From a virus, in the IMG/VR virus record IMGVR_UViG_3300034198_020347, positions 1-36,249 of that record: a stretch of 36,249 bases of DNA. One strand, 5' to 3'. The translations under genes and the position numbers were made by a program. A model generated the notes under the pieces. That model made no database searches. It had not been told where the DNA came from and worked only from the letters and a program-made list of their open reading frames with translations. This document shows positions 2,341 to 36,249 of the stretch, in pieces (within the stretch, counting starts at the first letter, position 1; the number at the start of each line of letters is the position of its first letter).

Positions 2341-4191
2341 TTATTGTGTTGAGTTGAATTGTTTTTTAACTACTGGAGACGTATCATCGTTGTTTGCTGA
2401 TGTTAATTGAACTGTTGTACCTCTATTAAGAATCGTTGTACTATTGGTACTTATAAGATTTGTACCAGATTGCATATTAGCAAACTTTTTGGCTAACGAC
2501 ATTTCTTGAAAAAGTTTATCGGTTGAAGTCATTTTGTACCCCATTGGTTCCAATTCAGCTTTTTTAATATTATTTGTTTGTGCAAATGTACTAGGATCAA
2601 CTTTTTTATTATCTTTCAATACTTCATAGTGTAAATGTGGGCCAGTTGAACGGCCTGTTGAGCCTATTTCTCCAAGTTTTTGTCCTTTTTCTACATTATC
2701 GCCAATTTTTATTGAGGACTTTGAGAGGTGAGCATATCGGGTTTTATAACCTTCTCCGTGATCCACTTCAACAAAATTTCCATATCCTCCAGCTTCGTAT
2801 GACACATTCGATATTGTACCCGATGCTGTTGCTAAAACAGGATCACCTAATTTGCCTTTAAAATCAACTCCACCATGCATGTGACTTCCACGATTTTCAC
2901 CAAATTTACCAGTCATTTCACTCGGGGATTTTAATCTTTCTAACGCTTTATCAATATTTGACTGTGATTGCATATTTGCTTTATTGCCTGCTACACCCAC
3001 ATAATAAGATTCACCAGCTTTAATATCTCTTGCTTCATATCCTTTACCTGCTGGTCTATGAACGTCTGTTGCAACAGGTATGGAAGCATATTCTTTTGCC
3101 AAATTATTTTGAAATTCTTCTTTCGACATTTTACCCGATTGATATTCTTCAAGTCCTCTATTTTTTAAAGTTCTTGTAAATAATTGCTCCTGTACTTCAG
3201 GTGTGAATTTGGTTTCTCCGGTTAAACCTTCTTGTTTCGACACGCCTTTTAACGTATCTTGTAAAAATTGATATTTACCAACAGCAGTAGAAGGATATTG
3301 ACCACTCTTTTTCATTTCATCTTGTAACTTTGAAATTTCATCCAATGTCATTTCAGTAAGTGGTTTTTCTGGTGTGATTCCTTTGCCTGATGTTGCTGTT
3401 ACTAATTTATTATAATCTCCACCGGATTCCAATTTACCAATGATATTACCTAGCTCAGAAACATCACCAGTTCCCATGTCAAATTTCATGAAATCTGGTA
3501 ACATAGATTTCCAATCCACATTTGCTAAAGCTTTTTCAGCAACAGCAAATAGGCCTAATCCAAGTAAACCAACGCCAGCATATTTTCCTATGCCAGATTT
3601 TTTAACTTTACGACCTAGTTTTTTAATGCCTGATACTTTTTTGCTTGTTAAGGCTTCTATCGTTTCATCTAAGAAATTGTCTTTTTGTTTATCTAACTGT
3701 TTTCTATATTTTTTATCTGCTTTAACTTTCTTTTTCTCAAAGTCATATTGTTCATTCATAAAATTGAACATTTTACCTAAAACATCCGATTCAGAATCAC
3801 CACTTCTTAATATACGAGAAGGTCCAGAATTAATTGTGGTTCTTTTTGGATCTTTTTTTCTTACAGGTTCTTTCTTTTCTTCAGATTTTGCAGATGTATC
3901 TGTTTGTTCTGCTTCTTGTGGTTGTTGTGCTTGTTTACGAGCTGGATTTGATTTGAATGCCGATGGTGTAACAGCAGACATGATTGGATTGTCCATCATA
4001 TCTTCAACACCTTTGGATTTTAATAAGTCTTGTGAACGCTTACGCATTGCATCAATGAAATCTTGGCTTAACGGTTCAACCGATTCACCATTTGGATCGA
4101 TTGTATAATCTACATTTTCTACCAGCGGTTTTTGTTTATCAATACCGTGAAGATGATTGATTATCTTTGAGATGTTTTGTGCTGTGGTCAT
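2341..4191 (-). CDS. Tail lysin / tape-measure-like protein with lysozyme-like and M23 peptidase domains, 616 aa
   Basis: Modular virion protein. Residues ~114-184 hold the motif block shared with the 544-aa protein. Residues ~204-222 form a hydrophobic segment (YAGVGLLGLGLFAVAEKAL). Residues ~242-376 resemble phage lysozyme/transglycosylases of the lambda R type: catalytic-looking E255 in KLESGGDY, and STAVGKYQFLQDT resembling the lambda R GAGRYQLL motif. Residues ~427-536 are a complete M23 (LytM) endopeptidase: H439-x3-D443 (HGGVD), H488, and H519-x-H521 (HLHYE), all zinc ligands or catalytic residues present. It probably cuts both glycan strands and peptide cross-links locally during infection. 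The ATG directly abuts the TAG of the gp51-like frame (TAG|ATG) with no Shine-Dalgarno, suggesting coupled translation. Tape measures often carry such domains and follow the frameshifted chaperone gene, so it may be the tape measure itself. That point is inference. Confidence 0.85.
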   Translation of the reverse strand: MTTAQNISKIINHLHGIDKQKPLVENVDYTIDPNGESVEPLSQDFIDAMRKRSQDLLKSKGVEDMMDNPIMSAVTPSAFKSNPARKQAQQPQEAEQTDTSAKSEEKKEPVRKKDPKRTTINSGPSRILRSGDSESDVLGKMFNFMNEQYDFEKKKVKADKKYRKQLDKQKDNFLDETIEALTSKKVSGIKKLGRKVKKSGIGKYAGVGLLGLGLFAVAEKALANVDWKSMLPDFMKFDMGTGDVSELGNIIGKLESGGDYNKLVTATSGKGITPEKPLTEMTLDEISKLQDEMKKSGQYPSTAVGKYQFLQDTLKGVSKQEGLTGETKFTPEVQEQLFTRTLKNRGLEEYQSGKMSKEEFQNNLAKEYASIPVATDVHRPAGKGYEARDIKAGESYYVGVAGNKANMQSQSNIDKALERLKSPSEMTGKFGENRGSHMHGGVDFKGKLGDPVLATASGTISNVSYEAGGYGNFVEVDHGEGYKTRYAHLSKSSIKIGDNVEKGQKLGEIGSTGRSTGPHLHYEVLKDNKKVDPSTFAQTNNIKKAELEPMGYKMTSTDKLFQEMSLAKKFANMQSGTNLISTNSTTILNRGTTVQLTSANNDDTSPVVKKQFNSTQ

Positions 4192-4389
4192 CTATCGTTT
4201 CATTGAAACTTGTTGTTGTTTAATTCTTTCGTTTTCTTCTTCAATATACTGAATCAACATGGTAACGTAAATATCCCGCTCCCACGGTAACATATTTTCA
4301 AGTTCCGTGAGAGAATACTTATGGTGTTGCATCAAAGAGAAATTAGTTTTATAGTAATTTCTTAAATTGTCATGACAAAATATTACTCG
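4192..4389 (-). CDS. gp51: gp51-like tail assembly chaperone extension, made by -1 frameshift from the gp26-like gene
   Basis: The frame runs 65 codons from the slippery site to TAG at 4194-4192. Its sequence is protein-like throughout: DNLRNYYKTNFSLMQ, then HKYSLTELENMLPWERDIYV and a charged helix ending in QQQ. This resembles the gp51-type/hub-assembly tail in T4-like phages. The only internal ATG (4332-4330) would give 46 aa but has no Shine-Dalgarno, and the 19 codons before it also look coding (NLRNYY, TNFSL), so entry by frameshift fits better than separate initiation. The full fusion would be 305 aa: 240 residues of the gp26-like protein plus 65. The stop abuts the ATG of the 616-aa gene. 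The coding reading is strong; the frameshift is inferred from sequence alone. Confidence 0.8.
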   Translation of the reverse strand, partial: RVIFCHDNLRNYYKTNFSLMQHHKYSLTELENMLPWERDIYVTMLIQYIEEENERIKQQQVSMKR

Positions 4390-5108
4390 AAAAAACTTTC
4401 GAGACCTTCCATACTGAACGTATGGTCAAAACCGCATTTAGAACACTTCATATCTACCTTCTTATTCATCTTAGGTAGATGGTTAAAGAAATCTTCTAAC
4501 TTGCCAAATTGTTCTTGGTTTAATGATTCGATAAACTCAAACAATTCACTGCGGGGTGTTTCATCTGCACGATAGTATTGTTCACCATCAAAAATATATT
4601 CAATTGAATCAACTACAACTTCAAAGGCAATATCAACGGCAGATTGTTTTTTAGCCAACTTTTCAACCAGTGAAAACGCTGGATATTTCATTTTAATGCT
4701 AATGATGTCAGTAATTTGAATAACATCTTTGTTGTTTGGATCAATATCAACACCAACATCCAACAAATTAAAAGATGCGGCCATTTTATTATCACATGGT
4801 TGACCGTCCACTTCATTGGTGCAAACATATTTGTTTTCTACAACCTCACCAACGGAACGAGCACGAAGATTGATAAAATAATATTCAACATCAATCACAG
4901 GTAAACTGTCAATATCAATACCTTCAGTTAAGGTACAGTTATTGAGAACCTGTTTAATATTTCTTTCGATGGTTTCTTTATCATCTGCTTCCATCGCCAT
5001 CATTAAATTCTTTTGTTCTTTAACTAAGAAAGGTCTGAAACGAATGTGTTTCTTAGAAAGCGGTAAATCCAGTTCATAGACTGGTGTATCAATTTTTGGC
5101 AAAGCCAT
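4383..5108 (-). CDS. gp26: gp26-like baseplate hub / tail assembly chaperone (T4_baseplate family), 241 aa
   Basis: Matches the T4-like gp26 family (the family I know as Pfam T4 base plate protein). It begins MALPKIDTPVYELDLP, followed by RFRPFLVKEQKNLM. Two cysteine pairs, C96/C105 and C222-x2-C225, could form a split zinc ribbon. A strong ribosome site, AAGGAGATATAAA, precedes the ATG. The last sense codons, AGT TTT TTC GAG, contain the heptamer T TTT TTC in the correct frame for -1 slippage into the downstream gp51-like frame. The neighbours (gp19-family tube protein upstream, lysin/tape-measure-like protein downstream) fit the G/GT-type chaperone position of long-tailed phages. T4 places its 26 and 51 genes side by side as hub assembly factors. 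Family assignment is good; the chaperone mechanism is inferred. Confidence 0.88.
   Translation of the reverse strand: MALPKIDTPVYELDLPLSKKHIRFRPFLVKEQKNLMMAMEADDKETIERNIKQVLNNCTLTEGIDIDSLPVIDVEYYFINLRARSVGEVVENKYVCTNEVDGQPCDNKMAASFNLLDVGVDIDPNNKDVIQITDIISIKMKYPAFSLVEKLAKKQSAVDIAFEVVVDSIEYIFDGEQYYRADETPRSELFEFIESLNQEQFGKLEDFFNHLPKMNKKVDMKCSKCGFDHTFSMEGLESFFE
4389..4395 (-). promoter_or_regulatory. Programmed -1 ribosomal frameshift site (U UUU UUC)
   Basis: Read on the minus strand, the zero-frame codons are GAA AGT TTT TTC GAG TAA; T TTT TTC is a classic X XXY YYZ heptamer. A GGAAGG sequence (4410-4405) lies 9 bases upstream, where an internal Shine-Dalgarno stimulates dnaX-type shifts. A 7-bp hairpin, CTCGAAA/TTTCGAG with loop GTTT (4403-4386), overlaps the site, and a palindrome, TTGTCATGACAA (4378-4367), lies downstream. 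The shift leads directly into the open gp51-like frame. Confidence 0.8.
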
Positions 5109-5128: not shown

Positions 5129-5722
5129 TCACGCTGCTGTAATATCATTTACCAAACCGGTAATAAGTCCTTGTTTAATATTATTTCTAAGTGAAGAAAC
5201 AGTATTATTGTACCAACTGTTGTAAGCAAATACAACAGCCAATTTATGATAACCTTCTGTTGTCCAATCCATATCCAATTGATTGATTGACAACGGATAG
5301 GCTTCTTTCAACACAGCAGCATACGTCAATTCATTTGACACATCGTATTGGTTGATAGAAACATCAACTGCATAGTTTGCTTTATATTGAAAGTTAAAAT
5401 CTGTTGTGGGGTTAATTAATTCTTGCCATGCATCAAAGAAAATCTTTTCATTCATATCGTCAGAAACAATAAAAGTTAAAGTTGTTTCGTTGTAAGAGGT
5501 ATGATATGGAAACTTTTCTATTGGTGCGGAACCCATTTTCTTTTCGGTAGTTTGAAATGCTCTACCTGGTAATTCTGCTGCTTCGCATCGATAAGTTAAA
5601 TTTCTCGCATTGGTAATATAGGTTGCTAAGGCCAAAGGAATAGGAATAGTTACATCAAACCTTGATGGTCTAGCAACATCTACCTTGAAACTGGATTTAA
5701 AATCGTTTATACTGCCTGCCAT
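5129..5722 (-). CDS. gp19: gp19-family tail tube protein or tube initiator, 197 aa
   Basis: Belongs to the T4 gp19 tail-tube family: RPSRFDVTIPIP, then the conserved LTYRCEAAELPGRAFQTTEK core, FPYHTSYNETTLTF, FFDAWQELI near the middle, and a C-terminal FAYNSWY. At 197 aa it is longer than T4 gp19 (163). The start is set at 5722-5720, not the upstream in-frame ATG at 5758, because AAGGAA sits 6-7 bases before it and because its ATG overlaps the stop of the preceding gene (TAATG), the usual junction in this genome. It lies far from any sheath gene and next to the gp26-like chaperone gene. It may therefore be the main tube subunit, or a paralogue that starts the tube, as gp54 does in T4. The family is secure, the exact role is not. 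Confidence 0.82.
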   Translation of the reverse strand: MAGSINDFKSSFKVDVARPSRFDVTIPIPLALATYITNARNLTYRCEAAELPGRAFQTTEKKMGSAPIEKFPYHTSYNETTLTFIVSDDMNEKIFFDAWQELINPTTDFNFQYKANYAVDVSINQYDVSNELTYAAVLKEAYPLSINQLDMDWTTEGYHKLAVVFAYNSWYNNTVSSLRNNIKQGLITGLVNDITAA

Positions 5723-6329: not shown

Positions 6330-6767
6330 TTAGTTGATACCTAGGTGTTCTTCTGTAATGACTTTAAATTCCCAACCACGATCCAAACAATATTCTTCTG
6401 CGGCATGCCATTTAGCTTGATTTACACCCCATGTAGTTACTTCATTGATATACTGTTTGGTAATACGTTTTTTTTGTTCTGGTGGTTTGGTCTGTTTTTT
6501 GGGTTTTACTTCAATTAACATTGTTTTCATTTTACCTTCTTTGGTTCTAAGTTTGACCAAAAAGTCTGGAAAGTATCTGTGGAAGCGATTATCTACAGGA
6601 GACTTGTAAGGAACTATCAATTCTTCTGAAGCCCATGATAATATGTCCGGATTTAAGTCGAGCCACGTCATTACCTTACATTCCCAAGACGAGCGATAAA
6701 CAATATTAGTGTGGTCACCAATATATTTTTGTGGGTTACGGGGTTTAAATAGACCAGAATATGCCAT
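6330..6767 (-). CDS. gp4: Head completion protein gp4 (nuclease-fold)
   Basis: Close match along its length to T4 gp4 (150 aa), which acts late in head maturation before tail joining: MAYSGLFKPRNPQKYIGD, YRSSWE, WLDxNP, WASEE, then RYFPDF and LIEVKPKKQTKPP. The E-VKPKK and D-F residues fit the PD-(D/E)xK-like nuclease fold proposed for this family; E in SSWE, D in FPDF and E/K in IEVKPK are the likely active site. The start is fixed by the family N-terminus. No Shine-Dalgarno precedes the ATG. It heads the leftward operon, divergent from gp48, with only 33 bases between the two start codons. Confidence 0.93.
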   Translation of the reverse strand: MAYSGLFKPRNPQKYIGDHTNIVYRSSWECKVMTWLDLNPDILSWASEELIVPYKSPVDNRFHRYFPDFLVKLRTKEGKMKTMLIEVKPKKQTKPPEQKKRITKQYINEVTTWGVNQAKWHAAEEYCLDRGWEFKVITEEHLGIN

Positions 6768-8763: not shown

Positions 8764-10182
8764 ATGGCCAATTTGGGTTTAATGGATATTCGGTATCCAA
8801 CCGACTATCAACTATCAGATATCAATTTAATTTCACCAATGCAAGGCGGCAAAATACCGCTGATGGGTCTTTTGGTCGAATTAAATTTATTTGAAGATAT
8901 CTATAGTAGTTCAATTACAGGACAAATTGTTTTATCTGATGCTTTAGGTATTGTTTCAAATTTTCTTATGAATGGTTCAGAATTTGTTGAATTAACATTA
9001 AGAAAATTTAATGATGATGAATTGCCCATTAAAAGAAACTTTAGAGTATATAAAATTGCTGACCGTGTGATGGGAGATAGTACCAATTATGAAATTTATA
9101 CACTTAATATTTGTTCGGAAGAATTTTTAATATCTGAACAATATCGTATTTCCAAATCATTTAAAGGCCAAAAAATTTCTGATATTGTTACCAGCATTAT
9201 GGTAGACTATTTAAAGGTGGGTCTCAAAAATACAAAACAAATTTATATTGAGCCGACAACAGGACTTTATGATTTTATTTTACCTAATAAGAAGATATTT
9301 GAGACTGTCAATTGGTTGGCCACCTATGCACAACCAGATTCTAAGAACCCCGGTGCTGATTTTGTATTCTATGAAAATAGTTTAGGTTATTTTTTTAATT
9401 CATTACAGACATTATATAAACAGGATCCATGGCAAACATTTAAATATGATCCAAAAAATATTAGTACAAAAGGTATATCAAACGATTTACAAGAACAAAT
9501 AACTAATGTAATGAGTTTTGAAGTTTTAAATTTCTTTGATGTGCTTGGTGGTATTACTGACGGAACATTTAACAATCGAGTGATTAGTATTGATCCTGTT
9601 ACCAGAAAGAAAACGGTCACAGATTTTAATTACAATGATTTCTTTGCACGTTCAGAATCATTAAACAAAGCCGCTTTGATTAATAATTATAAAGATAGAG
9701 TTGGTAAAAAAATGTATGAAGCACCTCCTAAAGATTTACAGGCAGGTACACTCAGATTGGTAACAAGCAACTCTCAACAAAAGAAAAATGCTTGGGTATC
9801 ACAAAAACCGGATGCGGTTGCTAACGACATCTTTATTGAAAAATATATGCCTAATCGTGTATCACAGTTGGGGCAAATTAACTATACTCGATTAAAGATT
9901 ACGGTACCTGGTAGTCCACAGTTGATGGTGGGTAAAACAATTAACTTTATGACCTTTGGTATAAGTCCAGATTCTTTCTCTAGACCAGACGAAAGCACAG
10001 AAAGAAAACCTGACCCACTTTATTCAGGTAAATATTTAATTACCGCTGTGCGTCATGTTGTTAAAAAGGACAACACATATATAACGGTTATGGAAATATG
10101 CAGTGATAGTGGAAGTGTTGCTTATCCCACTTTTGATGGTTCAAATGCAGAATTACAAAATTATGTTAAAGGTGTACAATAA
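8764..10182 (+). CDS. gp27: Baseplate central hub protein gp27
   Basis: gp27-like hub protein (T4 391 aa, here 472), which trimerises to form the channel on which the gp5 spike sits. Recognisable features: an N-terminal beta domain (GKIPLMGLLVELNLFEDIYS, SSITGQIVLSDA), a gpD/VgrG-like YEIYTLNICSEEFLISEQ region, the domain with FDFILPN-like YDFILPNKKIFETVNWLAT, and a C-terminal domain ending GKYLITAVRHVVKKDNTYIT. It is followed by the OB-fold gene in a TAATG overlap, matching the functional pairing of gp27 and gp5. Identity rests on pattern and neighbourhood. Confidence 0.85.
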   Translation: MANLGLMDIRYPTDYQLSDINLISPMQGGKIPLMGLLVELNLFEDIYSSSITGQIVLSDALGIVSNFLMNGSEFVELTLRKFNDDELPIKRNFRVYKIADRVMGDSTNYEIYTLNICSEEFLISEQYRISKSFKGQKISDIVTSIMVDYLKVGLKNTKQIYIEPTTGLYDFILPNKKIFETVNWLATYAQPDSKNPGADFVFYENSLGYFFNSLQTLYKQDPWQTFKYDPKNISTKGISNDLQEQITNVMSFEVLNFFDVLGGITDGTFNNRVISIDPVTRKKTVTDFNYNDFFARSESLNKAALINNYKDRVGKKMYEAPPKDLQAGTLRLVTSNSQQKKNAWVSQKPDAVANDIFIEKYMPNRVSQLGQINYTRLKITVPGSPQLMVGKTINFMTFGISPDSFSRPDESTERKPDPLYSGKYLITAVRHVVKKDNTYITVMEICSDSGSVAYPTFDGSNAELQNYVKGVQ

Positions 10183-10490
10183 TGTCTCATAGTAATAACT
10201 TTCTTGGTACTAAATTTATCTGGTGGACAGGTGAAGTTGAATCAAGAGTTGATCCTTTGACACTTGGTAGATGCCAAGTGAGAATCTTTGGTTGGCACAC
10301 AGATAATAAAAGTCAATTACCTACAAAAGATTTACCTTGGGCTCATCCCATGTTACCAATTAATAATTCACAAACATTTAGTGTTCCACAAGTGGGCGAT
10401 TGGGTGGTAGGTTTTTTTATGGACGGCGAAAGTGCACAGTTTCCAATAATGATGGGTGTTTTGCCTGGTATCACACCAGCAAAAGGATAA
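10182..10490 (+). CDS. gp5: gp5 N-terminal OB-fold domain as a separate gene, 102 aa
   Basis: Corresponds to the N-terminal OB-fold of T4 gp5 (about the first 130 of 575 residues), which links the gp27 hub to the spike: FIWWTGEVESRVDPLTLGRC, QVRIFGWHT, LPWAHPMLP, then VGDWVVGFFMDG and FPIMMGVLPG. The reading frame ends after this fold. Neither a lysozyme nor a beta-helix follows in the same polypeptide. It overlaps gp27 (TAATG) and is followed after 3 bases by a helical protein and then by the spike gene, so the T4 gp5 functions appear split across genes. Confidence 0.9.
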   Translation: MSHSNNFLGTKFIWWTGEVESRVDPLTLGRCQVRIFGWHTDNKSQLPTKDLPWAHPMLPINNSQTFSVPQVGDWVVGFFMDGESAQFPIMMGVLPGITPAKG

Positions 10491-10493
10491 AAT

Positions 10494-11297
10494 ATGGCAA
10501 ATACAGTAATACAATTAACAAATGTAGAAGTTGATAATTATGGAAATGTCATAGAAACTGATATTCCTAATCCTTTATATTTTAATGATAAACTATTTGT
10601 TATCGACCAGCCAACTAGTGTGGCGCCTCAGACCAGAGGTGATATCGAAAATACAGGTATTCAAACCGCCAACAAAAATAAAAGCCATGTTTGTGATACA
10701 ACAATTTATGTTGATAGAGCCGTTGCTTTTGCCAAAGCTACAGGCGGACAATTAGTCCTCGCTATTAGAAATGCTATCAAAGCTATTATGAAAGCTTTAG
10801 GTATTAATCCTGGTTCAAATGGTTTAATTGAATTTCTTAAAAAAGTAAAAGACTATGCCGATGAATTTACACAATGGATGAATGAAATTCAAAATGATAT
10901 TAATGCATTTTTGACTAGTGTTCAAAAAATTCAAGCACTAATTGCTTATATTTTAAGTTTACCTGGTGAATTGATTAAATACTTTTTAGGTTGTATTAAA
11001 GAAGCGTATGCTGAGTTATCTGCTGGATTTTTACAAGTAATTGGTGAACTTGGAAATGTGGGTACAGATGAAAGTAAAGCTTTATCCGATTCTCTTAAAG
11101 CCGCATATGGTTCAGTTAAAACAAGTGTAGCAACTGCAATCAAAACAGCAACTACTGTAACCGCTTTACCAGTAACAACAGTTGGAACATTGTTGAGTCC
11201 AGGAAATTCCACAGTAGCTCAACAACAAGCGGCTGCTAAATCCGCTGGAATACTTTTTAATCCATACAATACAGAACAAACATTTAATAAACCATAA
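10494..11297 (+). CDS. Unrecognised hub-associated protein between OB-fold and spike genes, 267 aa
   Basis: No family recognised. Residues ~1-75 look like beta structure (TVIQLTNVEVDNYGN). Residues ~75-175 are predicted helical with moderately hydrophobic stretches (QLVLAIRNAIKAIMKALGI, KIQALIAYILSLPGELIKYF). The C-terminal ~90 residues are Ala/Thr/Ser-rich, with a short Asn/Pro-rich end (LFNPYNTEQTFNKP). The ribosome site AAAGGATAAA precedes the ATG. The stop overlaps the spike start (TAATG), so the two are probably made in step. It stands where T4 gp5 has its lysozyme domain, but I see no lysozyme-like motif. It may be a hub linker or internal plug; this is speculation. Confidence 0.7.
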   Translation: MANTVIQLTNVEVDNYGNVIETDIPNPLYFNDKLFVIDQPTSVAPQTRGDIENTGIQTANKNKSHVCDTTIYVDRAVAFAKATGGQLVLAIRNAIKAIMKALGINPGSNGLIEFLKKVKDYADEFTQWMNEIQNDINAFLTSVQKIQALIAYILSLPGELIKYFLGCIKEAYAELSAGFLQVIGELGNVGTDESKALSDSLKAAYGSVKTSVATAIKTATTVTALPVTTVGTLLSPGNSTVAQQQAAAKSAGILFNPYNTEQTFNKP

Positions 11298-12136
11298 TGG
11301 CTGACGATCCTTCACAATACGCATGGACACAACCGGTTGATGACACTCCAACCACCAAGTATCCTTATAACAATGTAACACGAACTGCTTCTGGTCACAT
11401 CATGGAATTTGATGATACGCCAGAGGGTGAAAGAATTCGTTTACAACACAGAACCACAACCTATACTGAAATGCGAGCAAACGGCGACCAAGTGGTCAGT
11501 ATTGTAGGTGATGGTTATGAAATTATTGTGGGTAATAAAAATGTTTTAGTAAAAGGACATTGTTCGATTACTATTGAAGGTGATTCTGTTTTAGAAGTAA
11601 AAGGTGATTGTACTCAAAGAATTAAAGGAAATTTCAAACAATTAATTGAAGGTAATTACGAACAAGTAGTAAAAGGTACTTCATCCATCTCATCCGGTGG
11701 AAATATGAGTTTTGGTGTGTTGAATGGTGCCACAGGTAAACTCAGAGTTATGGCTGGAGACCAAATGGTCATCAATAGTGATTTAACTGTTAATGGTGGT
11801 GTTCGTGCAGATTCAATTACATCAGAAGGTGCTATTGCTGCCGGTACAGGTATCACCGCAGGTATTCCTGGTTCGGCCAATCCAATTGCTGGCATAACTA
11901 CATTGGGTGGTATCAGAGCGGGATTCCCTCCAGCACCAACAACACCGGGAGTAATTGAAGCCACACAATTGGTAACCGCACCTGCTGTTATTGGTAGTGT
12001 TATCACTTATGGTGGAGTTTTAATGGATCCTGTGGGAGGTGCTCCGTTTATGAGATTGATTTATGATACCCATTCACACATTGGTAATCAAGGTCGACCA
12101 ACATCTGCACCACTACAACAAATGCCTTTACCTTAA
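11297..12136 (+). CDS. gp5: Baseplate spike: gp5 C-terminal beta-helix as a separate gene, 279 aa
   Basis: Cell-puncturing needle. Residues ~69-132 are eight uninterrupted octapeptides of the T4 gp5 C-domain type (V-x-G-x5), e.g. VKGHCSIT, IEGDSVLE, VKGDCTQR, IKGNFKQL, which build a trimeric beta-helix. The preceding SGHIMEFDDTPEGERIRLQH is the common VgrG/gp5 entry motif. The C-terminal end has IYDTHSHIGNQGRP, with H259-x-H261 matching the HxH iron-binding apex of P2 gpV-type spikes, so the tip may be metal-stabilised without a separate PAAR cap (gp5.4 in T4). No OB-fold or lysozyme is present. It overlaps the 267-aa gene upstream. Confidence 0.88.
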   Translation: MADDPSQYAWTQPVDDTPTTKYPYNNVTRTASGHIMEFDDTPEGERIRLQHRTTTYTEMRANGDQVVSIVGDGYEIIVGNKNVLVKGHCSITIEGDSVLEVKGDCTQRIKGNFKQLIEGNYEQVVKGTSSISSGGNMSFGVLNGATGKLRVMAGDQMVINSDLTVNGGVRADSITSEGAIAAGTGITAGIPGSANPIAGITTLGGIRAGFPPAPTTPGVIEATQLVTAPAVIGSVITYGGVLMDPVGGAPFMRLIYDTHSHIGNQGRPTSAPLQQMPLP

Positions 12137-25875: not shown

Positions 25876-26106
25876 ATGAGTTTAATTCCTGTAATTGATA
25901 CCACATATGTTAGAGATACTAACTCCAGAGCTCTTATTAATCAAGATAAATCTGGTCTTGAACGATATTTGGCCAAACGTAATCGATTGGCTGCTCAAAA
26001 AGAAGAAATAAATACAATCAAGTCGGATATAACAGATATCAAAGGTGATATCACAGAAATTAAACAACTGATGATGACATTAATAAAAAAAGGTTCAAAT
26101 GGCTAA
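25876..26106 (+). CDS. Small coiled-coil protein, 76 aa
   Basis: Short protein with an N-terminal extended part (SLIPVIDTTYVRDTNSRALI) and a C-terminal coiled coil with regular I/L spacing: INTIKSDITDIKGDITEIKQ, then LMMTLIKK. I know similar small proteins at this position in aquatic T4-like phages but no function. The stop overlaps the start of the fibre gene by 8 bases, so translation is coupled. It may be an oligomerising connector between the large baseplate protein and the fibre; that is inference. Confidence 0.75.
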   Translation: MSLIPVIDTTYVRDTNSRALINQDKSGLERYLAKRNRLAAQKEEINTIKSDITDIKGDITEIKQLMMTLIKKGSNG

Positions 26107-29100
26107 TACAGTTTCCCTCCTTAGTTACGCAAACACCTTTGGTGATTGGGTAGTCACAACCAATGCACTAACAAAAGAAAATAATGATTTTGCGGCTAAT
26201 AATTATGTTAAGCCAACAGGAACATTATTTTTGAATTCGTCAACTTTGGGTTTACAAGTTGCTAATTCTGCAATTATTGCTGGTCAATTTCAAGTTCAAG
26301 GTATTGGTTCTTCTGCTTATATCCAAAACAATCTTCGTGTTGATACTCAAGTTTATTTTACAAATACCTCTTTAGGTTTAACCAATTCTGGTCAAGCCAA
26401 TATTGGCGGTCCGTTATTGGCATTAGGTACAGGTACCGGACTTGCAGTTTCAAATAATGCCACTATTGGTGGTTACTTAACTGTTGCCAACACATTATCT
26501 GTTACTGGAGCAACATCATTAGGTAGTACATTAACCATTACGGGTGCCGCAACCGTTGGTAATACATTGGCTGTGGGAGGTACAACTACTGTTACGGGTG
26601 ACGTAAGTGCTACAGGTTCAGGTACATTTGGTAATAATGTAACGGCCGTTAATTCTGTAAAAGCCTACAACTTTGAAGCTGCTAATAATACAACTACAAC
26701 ATATTTGAATGTTCTTACAAATGCTTATGTAAATGGTAGCATGAGTATTGTTGGAACTGCTTATATGAATTCTTTACAATCCAATACAGCAATTGCAGGT
26801 AGTCGTTTAATTGTTGCTAATAATTCATATTTAAATATTGTTCAAGCTAATACTGTTGTTAATACTGCCACATTAAGTGTTGCTGGCGGAACATTTACAA
26901 ATGCTTTACAAGCAAATAGTTCAATTATTACACCAACAATAAATGTTACTGGAACAACTCTTACCAATGCATTAAATTCAAACACTTCAATTAATGCTGT
27001 TACTGTAAATGCTTCTGGTACAACTTATAGTAGTAATATTCAAGCAAACAATTCAGTAAGCGCAGCAAACCTAACTGCTTCTAGTGGTATATTTGGTAAT
27101 AATATTCAAGCAAACACCGGTCTAAGTTCATCAACATTAAGTGTTTCCGGTCCTGCCTATGCTAATACTGTTACAGCAAATACAACAATAACAACACCAA
27201 AAATTACAGTAAATACTTTATTAGATGCCAATAGTGCTTCAGGATTCTTTAATACATTACAAACTACGGGGCAACTAAGTGTTGGTGGCAACTTTGTTAT
27301 TAATGGCGCAACAATTTATAATTCTAACACGTTTACTTTGAATGCTGGTTCTTCTACTGGCCAAATCAGTTATTATACCGTTAATAGAGGTTCCTCTGGT
27401 GCCAATTCAGCAATTCGTTGGAATGAACCACAAAAATATTGGGATATTTTGGATGTAGATAATTCAAATATTTCAACACAATATTCACAAATTTTAACTG
27501 CTAATTTAATTAGCGATTCAATTACTTCAACAAGTTCATCTACGTTGGCATCTTCTAAAGCTGCCAATACATTAAGTAATAATATTGCAACCGCCAATAC
27601 TTCTTTGAAGTCATATGTAGATAACACAATTTCTACAGCAAACACATCATTAAAGTCTTACACGGATAATACTGTTAATACTGCCAACACTTCCATGAAG
27701 TCTTATGTGGATACTGCTAACACTTCCATGAAGTCATATGTAGATAATAATGTTAGCAATCTACAAACACAAATCAGTTCTAATGTTACATCATTACAAT
27801 CACAAATTAGTTCTAATGTAGCTTACATTTCTGGTGTTGATTCTACACAAAATACAAACATTACTGCTGTTAATACGTTTGCTCAGTCTGCTTATAATAA
27901 AGCTAATACGGGATCGGGCACATTCAATGGTACAACCGGTCAAGCTGTTGCCAACAATGGTGTATTTACTTTTTCAAGTAATAATGGTGTAGTTATTTCT
28001 GGCACAGCAAATACTGTTTATGTCAATACATCACAAGACCTAAGAAGCAGTGCGAGTCCAACGTTTGCAGCATTGACATTAACGGCTGCATTGCCAATAT
28101 CACAAGGCGGTACTGGTGCAACATCAGCTGGTTCAGCATTGACTACTTTGCTACCAACGGGAACAACTTCTGGTTATGTGTTGACAACTGGCGGACCAGG
28201 AAATTTCTATTGGGCAGCTGGTGGTAGTGGTGGTAGCGGTGCCACTCCAGGAACAACAATCAATTCAACACAGCTGACCTACACAGGTAATGGATCGGGG
28301 TATTCTTATACAACACCGATATATGTTCCGGGTTCAAACCAATTAAAAGTTTATATTAACGGTGTTCGTCAATTTGCTTCAGAATATACTGAATCAAGTA
28401 ATACCATAGTTACTTTTGCAACACAACCTAAATCTGGTGATGCAATTCTAGTTGAAGTTGATGGTTACACTAGCAATCCTTATTATGCAAATAATATTGC
28501 TTATTCTGTAAATAACTTAATTAGCCCAACTGCAAACACAATACAATTGGCAATTGATGGTTTAGCAGGTAATGTGGCATTTAAAGCAAGTCCATCATTT
28601 ACGGGAATTGCTACTTCTGTAACTCCTTCTACTGAAACAAGTAACACGCAAATTGCAACAACTGCATTTGTTAAAAATGCTTTAAATTCTGGCAATACAT
28701 TTACACATAGTATCACAGGAAGTGCCGGTAGCGTTTCTGCTCTATCATTAACAGGATCAACATTAGCTGCTTCTGTAACAGGATCAAGTTTAACTTCTGT
28801 TGGAACGATTGCTACTGGTACATGGCAAGGTACAACAATTTCTCCAACATATGGTGGAACAGGAGTTAATAATGGTTCAAATACATTAACAATCTCTGGA
28901 AGTTATACATTAAATCAAAACGTAGCTACAGGCGCAAGTCCATCTTTTGTTGGAACAAACTTTACCGGTACTGCTTCAGGATTGAGTATTGGTGGAAATG
29001 CTGCAACATCAAATTCTGCCGTAACTTCTACAACAGCAACAACCGCAAATGCTCTAAACACTTCAAATAACTACCAAGTGGCTTCATTGGGTGTTGGTAC

Positions 29101-29455
29101 TGCTGCATCAGGAACTTCAGGTGAAATTCGTGCTACAAATAATATTACCGCTTACTATTCTGATGACAGACTTAAAACTCGTTTGGGTAATATTGAAAAT
29201 GCATTAGAAAAAGTATTATCACTAAATGGATTCCAATATGAAGCAAATGAAACGGCTCAAGCATTAGGTTATAAAGTTAAACCGGAAGTTGGTCTTTCCG
29301 CACAAGAAGTTCAAAAAGTATTACCTGAAGTTGTTGTGCCTGCACCAATAGATGAAAAATATTTGACTATTCACTATGAAAGAGTTATTCCATTGTTGGT
29401 GGAAGCAATTAAAGAACTTAAAGCAGAAATCGATACACTAAAAGGAAGTAAATAA
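26099..29455 (+). CDS. Long tail fibre with C-terminal S74 autoproteolytic chaperone, 1118 aa
   Basis: Trimeric fibre. The N-terminus (LLSYANTFGDWVVTTNALTK) resembles fibre attachment domains in marine T4-like phages. The shaft has three repeat classes: short VTGxxxxG beta repeats (~120-200), seven 22-residue repeats (214-367), and a coiled-coil-like stretch of four ANTSxKSYxDN units (~499-550). Then comes the fibre motif ISQGGTGATSAGSALTTLLP. The last ~100 residues are a Peptidase S74 intramolecular chaperone: YYSDDRLK with the Ser1021/Lys1026 dyad, GLSAQEVQKVLPEVV, and a final amphipathic helix. Self-cleavage at Tyr1020-Ser1021 would release a 98-aa piece after trimer folding. Followed by a fibre-tip-like gene in a TAATG overlap. 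Confidence 0.92.
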   Translation: MANTVSLLSYANTFGDWVVTTNALTKENNDFAANNYVKPTGTLFLNSSTLGLQVANSAIIAGQFQVQGIGSSAYIQNNLRVDTQVYFTNTSLGLTNSGQANIGGPLLALGTGTGLAVSNNATIGGYLTVANTLSVTGATSLGSTLTITGAATVGNTLAVGGTTTVTGDVSATGSGTFGNNVTAVNSVKAYNFEAANNTTTTYLNVLTNAYVNGSMSIVGTAYMNSLQSNTAIAGSRLIVANNSYLNIVQANTVVNTATLSVAGGTFTNALQANSSIITPTINVTGTTLTNALNSNTSINAVTVNASGTTYSSNIQANNSVSAANLTASSGIFGNNIQANTGLSSSTLSVSGPAYANTVTANTTITTPKITVNTLLDANSASGFFNTLQTTGQLSVGGNFVINGATIYNSNTFTLNAGSSTGQISYYTVNRGSSGANSAIRWNEPQKYWDILDVDNSNISTQYSQILTANLISDSITSTSSSTLASSKAANTLSNNIATANTSLKSYVDNTISTANTSLKSYTDNTVNTANTSMKSYVDTANTSMKSYVDNNVSNLQTQISSNVTSLQSQISSNVAYISGVDSTQNTNITAVNTFAQSAYNKANTGSGTFNGTTGQAVANNGVFTFSSNNGVVISGTANTVYVNTSQDLRSSASPTFAALTLTAALPISQGGTGATSAGSALTTLLPTGTTSGYVLTTGGPGNFYWAAGGSGGSGATPGTTINSTQLTYTGNGSGYSYTTPIYVPGSNQLKVYINGVRQFASEYTESSNTIVTFATQPKSGDAILVEVDGYTSNPYYANNIAYSVNNLISPTANTIQLAIDGLAGNVAFKASPSFTGIATSVTPSTETSNTQIATTAFVKNALNSGNTFTHSITGSAGSVSALSLTGSTLAASVTGSSLTSVGTIATGTWQGTTISPTYGGTGVNNGSNTLTISGSYTLNQNVATGASPSFVGTNFTGTASGLSIGGNAATSNSAVTSTTATTANALNTSNNYQVASLGVGTAASGTSGEIRATNNITAYYSDDRLKTRLGNIENALEKVLSLNGFQYEANETAQALGYKVKPEVGLSAQEVQKVLPEVVVPAPIDEKYLTIHYERVIPLLVEAIKELKAEIDTLKGSK
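26738..27199 (+). repeat. Seven tandem 66-bp (22-residue) fibre-shaft repeats
   Basis: In-frame repeats in the fibre gene, residues 214-367, with consensus x-L-x-V-x-G-x3-x-N-x-L-Q-A-N-x-x-I-x3. Examples: TLSVAGGTFTNALQANSSII and TLSVSGPAYANTVTANTTIT. The period is exactly 22 across all seven units, but DNA identity is moderate, so the duplication is old. Confidence 0.85.
27593..27748 (+). repeat. Four ANTSxKSYxD repeats in the fibre gene
   Basis: Irregularly spaced repeats in the coiled-coil-like part of the shaft: ANTSLKSYVDN, ANTSLKSYTDN, ANTSMKSYVDT, ANTSMKSYVDN. The last two share the DNA word AACACTTCCATGAAGTC, so this duplication is more recent than the 66-bp repeats and is a likely recombination point. 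Confidence 0.8.
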
Positions 29456-34398: not shown

Positions 34399-36249
34399 AT
34401 GGCCGCAAATACAGAAATTTTAATTAAACGCTCGCTAGCGAATACAACTCCTAATGCGCTTAATCAAGGTGAGTTGGCATACTCATACGCATCCAATACT
34501 TTATTCATTGGTACTCCTGGTTCAGATGGTTACTTGGAAATTGGTGCTTGGTCCGATTTAACAGGTTTATCCGCAGGATCTTACGGTAATACTACTACGA
34601 TTCCATCGATTACTGTTGATTCTCATGGCAAAATTACCTCAATATCGAACAATACAATCTCAACAACATTAAGCATTGGTGCTGATACGGGTGGTCCAGG
34701 TTCGGTTGATTTACTTACAGGCACATTAACTGTTAATGGTGGTGAAGGAATCGATTCATCTGTTTCCGGAGACACAATTACTCTTGATGTGGACGATACT
34801 GTTGTTCGTTCAAATACAGCAATTGCTTATCAGTTAATTGATGGCAACTTAAGCATTTCTGGTAACTTAAATGTTCTCGGTACACAAACAATTACCAATA
34901 CAGAAACATTTAATGTTATTGACCCATTAATCTATTTGGCAGCAAATAATTATACTGATGACATCGTAGATATCGGTTTTGTTGGTAATTATTACGATGC
35001 TGATACAGATACACAACGCCATGCAGGTGTGATGCGCCATGCTGGTGACAAAGATTTCTATATTTTCTACAACTACGATAAAGAACCTACATCAAATGTT
35101 ATCGACATTGGTGATGCAAGTTTCTTAGTTGGCAATACACATACGAATGTTATCGGTAATTTAACTGGTAATGTTGATGCAAGTTTGGTACAGAGTGGTG
35201 GTTTCTTGGCCGCTGAAGGCACATCATTTAACGGTGCAGACGGTTATTCATTCAAAGGTGACGGCGGATTCGATACTGGTATGTTCAGTCCGGTAGATGG
35301 CGAATTGCAATTTTATTCCAATGCTGAGCAGATTTTCACAGCAAATACAACTGTTGTTTTCTTTGAAAAAGATTTAAAATTACAAAATTTTGCTACAATC
35401 AACAATCCTAATGGTTTATTAGAATTAAATCCTGATGAAACTAATGAAGATGACCGTTATATTGTAATTGATCCAACTGCTCCAAATCACATTCACTTGA
35501 GAGCTGGCGGCACAATTGATGATTCTACAGCAGACTTGTTCCTTGGTGGTGAAAATAACTATGTTCGTGTCTCCGATGCAACTGCTAATGTTGAAATTAA
35601 AACAAATGGTGCAAACAATTGGACATTTACCAATGATGGTAAATTACAATTACCTAACGGCACAACAATTTCTGATGCCGATGCAGGATTCTATGTTGAT
35701 TCACTAGCAAGCGATGCTACTCCAGCAAACGTTGTATTCTATAACACAACGACCAAAGAGTTAACATACGGTTCTTTAGATGACTTGAATCCTGATAGTA
35801 TTAACTCTGGAGTTTATTCTTGGACAGTAGATAATATAACAGGCGCTTTATATTCTGATGCTGGTACTTACATTGGTGATAGTGCCAATAGTGTTGTCAT
35901 TGGCCAAAACGTAGATGTAACAAATGCAAACGCAGGACGTGTTGCAATTGGCGATTATGCTGGTAGTATAGTTCAAGAAGGTTTTGCAGTCGCAATTGGT
36001 GCTAACGCTGGTCAAACAGGTCAACAATGGGGTGCTACAGCAATTGGTACAAATGCTGGTACTTCTAATCAAGGAACGGTTGCTACAGCAATAGGTTCAA
36101 ATTCTGGTCGTTATACTCAAGGTCAAAATGCAGTTGCCATTGGTCGTAGAGCTGGTGAAACAACTCAAGGTCAATACGCAGTTGCATTAGGTAATAGAGC
36201 TGGTAAATTTGAACAAGGTCAATATTCTATCGCAATTGGTTCCCTTGCC
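34399..36249 (+). CDS. Long tail fibre with YadA-like head repeats, 3'-truncated by the window edge
   Basis: Frame open for 617 codons to the last base. The N-terminal ~50 residues are the Mtd_N-like attachment domain (NQGELAYSYASNTLFIG) also found alone in the 66-aa gene. Next come beta repeats and a domain common in aquatic T4-like fibres (DPLIYLAANNYTDDIVDIGF, VGNYYDADTDTQRHAGVMRH, DFYIFYNYDKEPTSNVIDIG). A further beta domain follows (GDGGFDTGMFSPVDGELQFY). From residue 515 there are six full 16-residue repeats of the YadA head type, and a seventh starts at the edge. Ribosome site CAGGGAC. Likely a trimeric host-recognition fibre; the C-terminus is not visible. Confidence 0.88.
   Translation, partial: MAANTEILIKRSLANTTPNALNQGELAYSYASNTLFIGTPGSDGYLEIGAWSDLTGLSAGSYGNTTTIPSITVDSHGKITSISNNTISTTLSIGADTGGPGSVDLLTGTLTVNGGEGIDSSVSGDTITLDVDDTVVRSNTAIAYQLIDGNLSISGNLNVLGTQTITNTETFNVIDPLIYLAANNYTDDIVDIGFVGNYYDADTDTQRHAGVMRHAGDKDFYIFYNYDKEPTSNVIDIGDASFLVGNTHTNVIGNLTGNVDASLVQSGGFLAAEGTSFNGADGYSFKGDGGFDTGMFSPVDGELQFYSNAEQIFTANTTVVFFEKDLKLQNFATINNPNGLLELNPDETNEDDRYIVIDPTAPNHIHLRAGGTIDDSTADLFLGGENNYVRVSDATANVEIKTNGANNWTFTNDGKLQLPNGTTISDADAGFYVDSLASDATPANVVFYNTTTKELTYGSLDDLNPDSINSGVYSWTVDNITGALYSDAGTYIGDSANSVVIGQNVDVTNANAGRVAIGDYAGSIVQEGFAVAIGANAGQTGQQWGATAIGTNAGTSNQGTVATAIGSNSGRYTQGQNAVAIGRRAGETTQGQYAVALGNRAGKFEQGQYSIAIGSLA
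35941..36249 (+). repeat. 48-bp repeats encoding YadA-head-like 16-residue units
   Basis: Residues 515-617 of the fibre: VAIGDYAGSIVQEGFA, VAIGANAGQTGQQWGA, TAIGTNAGTSNQGTVA, TAIGSNSGRYTQGQNA and so on, period exactly 16. The (V/T)AIGxxAG core is that of trimeric autotransporter adhesin heads, which form a left-handed parallel beta-roll. The array continues beyond the window. Confidence 0.88.

Follow-up and report, generated by a model that had tools for sequence, protein, structure and literature searches.

The origin of a gp51-like domain in the −1 frame

How is a gp51-like protein domain expressed when it lies behind a gp26-like gene, in the −1 frame, and the early start codons available to it look unfit for initiation? 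The question arises from the window, by which we mean the whole of the 36,249-base virus record that was analysed. The record comes from a T4-like phage and is probably a genome fragment; its closest relatives are IMG/VR contigs which, going by their accession numbers, we take to be of freshwater origin. The order of genes on the minus strand is head closure gp4, DNA end protector, a tail-tube-like gene, the gp26-like gene, the −1 frame, an M23 peptidase gene and a gene for a 544-aa protein (Table 1). The tail-tube-like neighbour on the upstream side is clear, the tape measure on the downstream side is identified weakly, and the ATG of the M23 gene abuts the TAG of the −1 frame. It is very likely, in our judgement, that the locus encodes a T4-like tail assembly chaperone (TAC) pair, the long form of which would be produced by a −1 slip on the heptamer T TTT TTC.

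Table 1. Features of the gp26/gp51-like locus and of its neighbours in the window.
Feature	Position	Strand	Remarks
gp26-like gene, putative TAC-N, 241 aa, stop TAA 4383-4385	4383-5108	−	PF12322 T4_baseplate E 5e-58; phrog_150 E 2e-62
Slippery heptamer T TTT TTC	4395-4389	−	0 frame AGT TTT TTC; post-shift TTT TTT CGA
SD-like GGAAGG, probable stimulator	4410-4405	−	9 nt before heptamer; among strongest anti-SD matches in gene
−1 frame, gp51-like C-terminal domain of putative TAC-NC, 65 aa, stop TAG 4194-4192	4192-4389	−	phrog_634 E 4e-30
Internal ATG of −1 frame, judged non-start	4330-4332	−	No SD; missing in 18/130 representatives
Tail-tube-like gene, upstream, same direction	5129-5722	−	phrog_45 E 3e-33
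Next downstream gene, 616 aa, peptidase M23 domain	2341-4191	−	PF01551 E 4e-33
544-aa protein, tentative tape measure	700-2334	−	phrog_305 tape measure E 1e-4, weak match

Several other features of the record deserve mention in their own right. Two ORFs, 10182-10490 (+) and 11297-12136 (+), match the gp5-type hub/tail lysozyme family (phrog_430); the ORF between them (10494-11297) has no match, and gp5 is apparently split across genes. The ORF at 34399-36249 (+, 617 aa) runs off the end of the record and carries repeated AIGxxAG-type motifs, which are characteristic of the stalks of trimeric fibres or adhesins. The tRNA-Trp that ARAGORN places at 28807-28896 (+) lies within the tail fibre ORF 26099-29455 and is probably a false positive. 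The gp4-like head closure protein (6330-6767, −) also matches a TnsA-like endonuclease domain.

The junction in this phage

The gp26-like gene ends in GAA GGT CTC GAA AGT TTT TTC GAG TAA, which, as a first-pass annotation made from the sequence had proposed, contains T TTT TTC in the phase of −1 slippage and, 9 bases ahead of it, GGAAGG. A slip at this site would lead, again as proposed, past the stop codon and into an open frame of 65 residues, the junction reading FF followed by RVIFCHDNLRNYYKTNFSLMQHHKYSLTELENMLPWERDIYV... This frame matches the gp51 family (phrog_634, baseplate hub assembly catalyst) and, less strongly, the distal end of the gp26 family phrog_150. Its only early start codons in the window are a TTG (4335) and the ATG at 4332, both without an SD (duplex energy +1.6 compared to −8.7 kcal/mol at the gp26 start); the ATG had been described as lacking a ribosome site.

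Conservation of the heptamer among relatives

Alignment of gp26-like gene ends from relatives bore out the expectation that the heptamer and the −1 overlap would be conserved. The in-phase T TTT TTC recurs in every close IMG/VR relative whose junction could be read (79 of 79, 68-83% identity), and the base at which the gp51-like domain starts in the −1 frame is identical in each of them. Overall, T TTT TTN is found in phase at 252 of the 253 loci that have a gp51-like domain in the −1 frame, a set that was reached after two additional scans and for which the presence of this C-terminal (C) domain in the −1 frame served as the criterion. Were the frame break confined to one record, it might be put down to a sequencing error, or to a decayed gene, with one true gene artificially split; its recurrence at the identical base across hundreds of loci, as well as in reference phage genomes, however, refutes this explanation, which we regard as practically impossible.

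Among representatives that share less than 50% identity, TTTTTT is kept in 66 of 67, with C (26), T (32), A (7) or G (1) as the last base of the heptamer. The codon preceding the Phe of the heptamer in these 66 is AGT, AAT, TCT, GAT, CGT, GGT or GCT, and thus always ends in T, compared to a T-ending share of 0.52 for comparable codons elsewhere; likewise, the first Phe codon of the heptamer is always TTT, as against 0.69 elsewhere. The Phe/Leu codon and the preceding residue vary at the slip site, whereas the six Ts are fixed. As judged from these alignments, the heptamer is conserved at the nucleotide level beyond amino-acid needs, and the nominal probabilities of this base conservation (2e-19 and 2e-11), which ignore shared ancestry, are meaningful as orders of magnitude only.

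The heptamer is spread over the Kyanoviridae, part of the Straboviridae, the Pootjesviridae and Emdodecavirus. The junction is also present in Prochlorococcus P-SSM2, S-PM2, S-SKS1, syn9 and S-TIM4, as well as in Vibrio VH7D and D480, Aeromonas phiAS5, VmeM-32, Agrobacterium Atu_ph04 and Sinorhizobium phiM7. Pelagibacter HTVC008M and Methylophilales Melnitz have a T TTT TTT version, Rhizobium P10VF has T TTT TTG and Pseudoalteromonas XG4 has T TTT TTA.

Some relatives have runs of seven to eight Ts, which would be compatible with slippage of the RNA polymerase, rather than the ribosome, on the T run, the fusion then being translated from altered transcripts. However, the commonest form of the heptamer is exactly six Ts followed by a C (178 of 252 loci), and a run of six Ts is short for bacterial transcriptional slippage. 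Furthermore, the phase never departs from X XXY YYZ, and the SD-like bias described below indicates the ribosome. We consider transcriptional slippage highly improbable and retain a −1 slip of the ribosome as the preferred reading. Among the points against this reading, which also include the weak identification of the tape measure and the non-significant fold link to a solved TAC, are the Ackermannviridae (Menlow, Se_EM1, PH4), in which a C-like −1 frame is kept without a canonical heptamer.

At the Ackermannviridae loci L102, L264 and L265, the gp26 homologue ends in GAR ATT TTC ATT TAA and the C-like domain lies in the −1 frame; this frame has no clear signal or start and is often unannotated. 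In Vibrio K469 and D531 (L095, L096), the gp26 homologue has no T6 heptamer, and the start of the C-like −1 frame overlaps or adjoins the stop (TAATG). A switch from frameshifting to reinitiation is possible in these two phages.

Translation of the second frame

In the stretch from the slip site to the internal Met, the −1 frame has a pN/pS of 0.11; the values for the two remaining frames, which contain stops in every distinct close-clade sequence, are 1.06 and 0.69. The second frame is therefore protein-like ahead of the internal Met, in line with the earlier description of it as such from its first codons. The +1 frame was considered as well and rejected: the C domain was never found there, and stops occur in all close loci tested.

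It is conceivable that the gp51-like frame constitutes an independent small gene, started internally, at ATG 4332 or TTG 4335, or by termination-reinitiation. Many cyanophage records do annotate a gp51 with an ATG of its own, and an ATG is present at codon 20/21 in 112 of 130 representatives. This ATG, however, lacks an SD: the mean SD energy at it is −0.25 compared to −5.4 kcal/mol at the gp26 starts, a value that, together with the incomplete conservation of the codon, led us to reject it as a start. The codons ahead of it are under protein-level selection, and the window's −1 frame has no ATG, GTG or TTG ahead of codon 20, a situation shared by 44 of the 130 representatives and seen in 43 of 80 close loci, the window included. 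Moreover, a separate gene would leave the synonymous conservation of the heptamer unexplained, and it is at odds with the in-frame fusion of the C domain to the gp26-like (N) part in T4-type, Campylobacter and Vibrio relatives. We regard a separate gene as very improbable and conclude, from these patterns of codon use and selection, that the −1 frame is very probably translated as protein from upstream, without a start of its own.

The suggestion that simple gene callers would miss the second frame holds for some records, which omit it, but not for the many cyanophage records with a separately annotated gp51. At L083, L092, L101 and similar loci, the C domain frame is unannotated in public records or has been given inconsistent starts.

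Elements that may stimulate the slip

The sequence at −14 to −10 ahead of the heptamer is GARGG-like in most loci. Although this pattern stems largely from a conserved charged residue and a Gly, codon choice exceeds what these residues impose: the conserved Glu of the SD-like element is encoded by GAG in 52 of 82 cases (63%), compared to 727 of 3,051 (24%) at other positions of these genes (odds ratio 5.5, p 8e-14). On average, the anti-SD energy at the site falls in the top 6% by strength when ranked against same-phase windows of the gene, as calculated with the common bacterial 16S tail, which may differ from that of the host. The SD-like GGAAGG would probably stimulate the slip. A conserved 3′ stem-loop was not found in a search for pseudoknot-free structures (consensus energy −0.9 kcal/mol; z −1.07 for the single sequence), which counts against a frameshift, although a 3′ RNA structure is not obligatory. 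Our search of the literature, in which Vladimirov et al. 2022 is known to us through citing papers, found no description of an SD-type codon bias before the heptamer.

Relatives with in-frame N+C genes

In the T4-type phages slur02, RB49 and phiAS4, gp51 is a full-length gene that adjoins and diverges from gp26. The first 200 residues of T4-type gp51 are homologous to gp26 (98.7%, E 1.6e-16 in a profile comparison), and its last 50 residues (203-252) correspond to the −1 domain (95.8%, E 7e-9, hhalign); the N part of the pair, in turn, matches T4-type gp26 at 99.6% (hhalign). T4-type gp51 is thus a gp26 homologue with a C domain, and the T4 lineage would make the long form from a gene of its own. 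In-frame N+C genes are also found in Campylobacter CPt10 and Vibrio phiKT1024, and such naturally fused genes speak for N+C as the functional product. The idea that a frameshift joins gp26 and gp51 is supported for this phage and its relatives, but T4 and its close kin, with their full-length gp51, need no shift.

The spread of the heptamer suggests that frameshifting is the ancestral state. More specifically, an SD-stimulated U UUU UUN frameshift may have been ancestral for the long chaperone of T4-like phages, lost by duplication and fusion in the T4 lineage (gp26 and gp51) and kept in some lineages, such as the Ackermannviridae, with a non-canonical or replaced signal, a tentative scenario to which we would give slightly less than an even chance.

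A putative tail assembly chaperone and a model of its expression

T4 gp26 and gp51 have been listed as hub assembly chaperones, with gp51 described as ‘of unknown function’ (PMC3004832). An AlphaFold2 model of the N protein (pLDDT 91) matches gp26-type models from many phages; its match among solved structures to the HK97 TAC (2ob9) is weak and non-significant (prob 0.30, E 2.9). The model of the C domain is all helical (pLDDT 81) and has no significant fold match, and a sequence search of solved structures returned no significant match for N or C. As the HK97 TAC match is not significant, the chaperone role rests on gp26/gp51 homology, on the tail-tube-like neighbour and on the analogy to lambda, whose gpG and gpGT bind the tape measure, with T bringing in the tube protein (PMC5009743). 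Judged by its homology and its place in the genome, the pair would be a TAC-N/TAC-NC of the lambda G/GT type.

Combining these findings, we infer that the shift takes place with an efficiency at which the majority of ribosomes would halt at TAA, yielding the 241-aa gp26-like TAC-N. The SD-like GGAAGG would pair with 16S rRNA and pause some ribosomes 9 nt ahead of the heptamer, and the paused fraction would slip by −1 on T TTT TTC and read beyond the TAA, extending the chain by 65 gp51-like residues to a 305-aa TAC-NC. If lambda gpG/gpGT is taken as the model, the tape measure protein may be coated by the N part and tail tube subunits recruited by the C part, with both chaperone forms departing before the tail is completed.

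Relation to known systems

In E. coli dnaX, a −1 frameshift occurs on an X XXY YYZ heptamer that follows an SD-like element at a distance of about 10 nt, a spacing that resembles the one found here. However, dnaX combines A AAA AAG with a 3′ stem-loop and its shift results in the short product, whereas in this phage the heptamer is T TTT TTC, no conserved stem-loop was found and the shift would lead to the long product.

The TAC genes of T4-like phages were reportedly identified by Vladimirov, Gautam and Davidson in 2022 (Virology 566:9-15). PMC12846349 credits that work with polyT −1 signals in T4-like TAC-N genes, and PMC10885494, citing the same work, states that some T4-like phages have a short and a fused gene instead of frameshifting. 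The gp26/gp51 TACs of T4-like phages have the same two protein parts as the pair described here; the difference is that gp51 is a separate full-length gene in the T4-type phages and a −1 frame in this phage. With lambda gpG/gpGT (Xu, Hendrix and Duda 2004; PMC5009743), the locus would share a −1 slip near the end of the chaperone gene, proximity to the tail tube gene, and a short and a long form. It differs from lambda in the heptamer, in the contractile tail and in the upstream SD-like signal, and no sequence similarity between the two was detected. Phage Adele, of another family, the Vandenendeviridae, likewise has a −1 TAC shift, with a conserved GTTTTT motif, and its second frame is annotated as a separate hypothetical gene (PMC12846349).

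Since both the T4-like TAC genes and their polyT signals are credited to the 2022 work, the finding is not categorically new; what the present analysis adds is the breadth of heptamer conservation and the SD-type codon bias. It also corrects an annotation error that is systematic: gp51 in these phages would be the end of a fusion protein and not a separate small protein.
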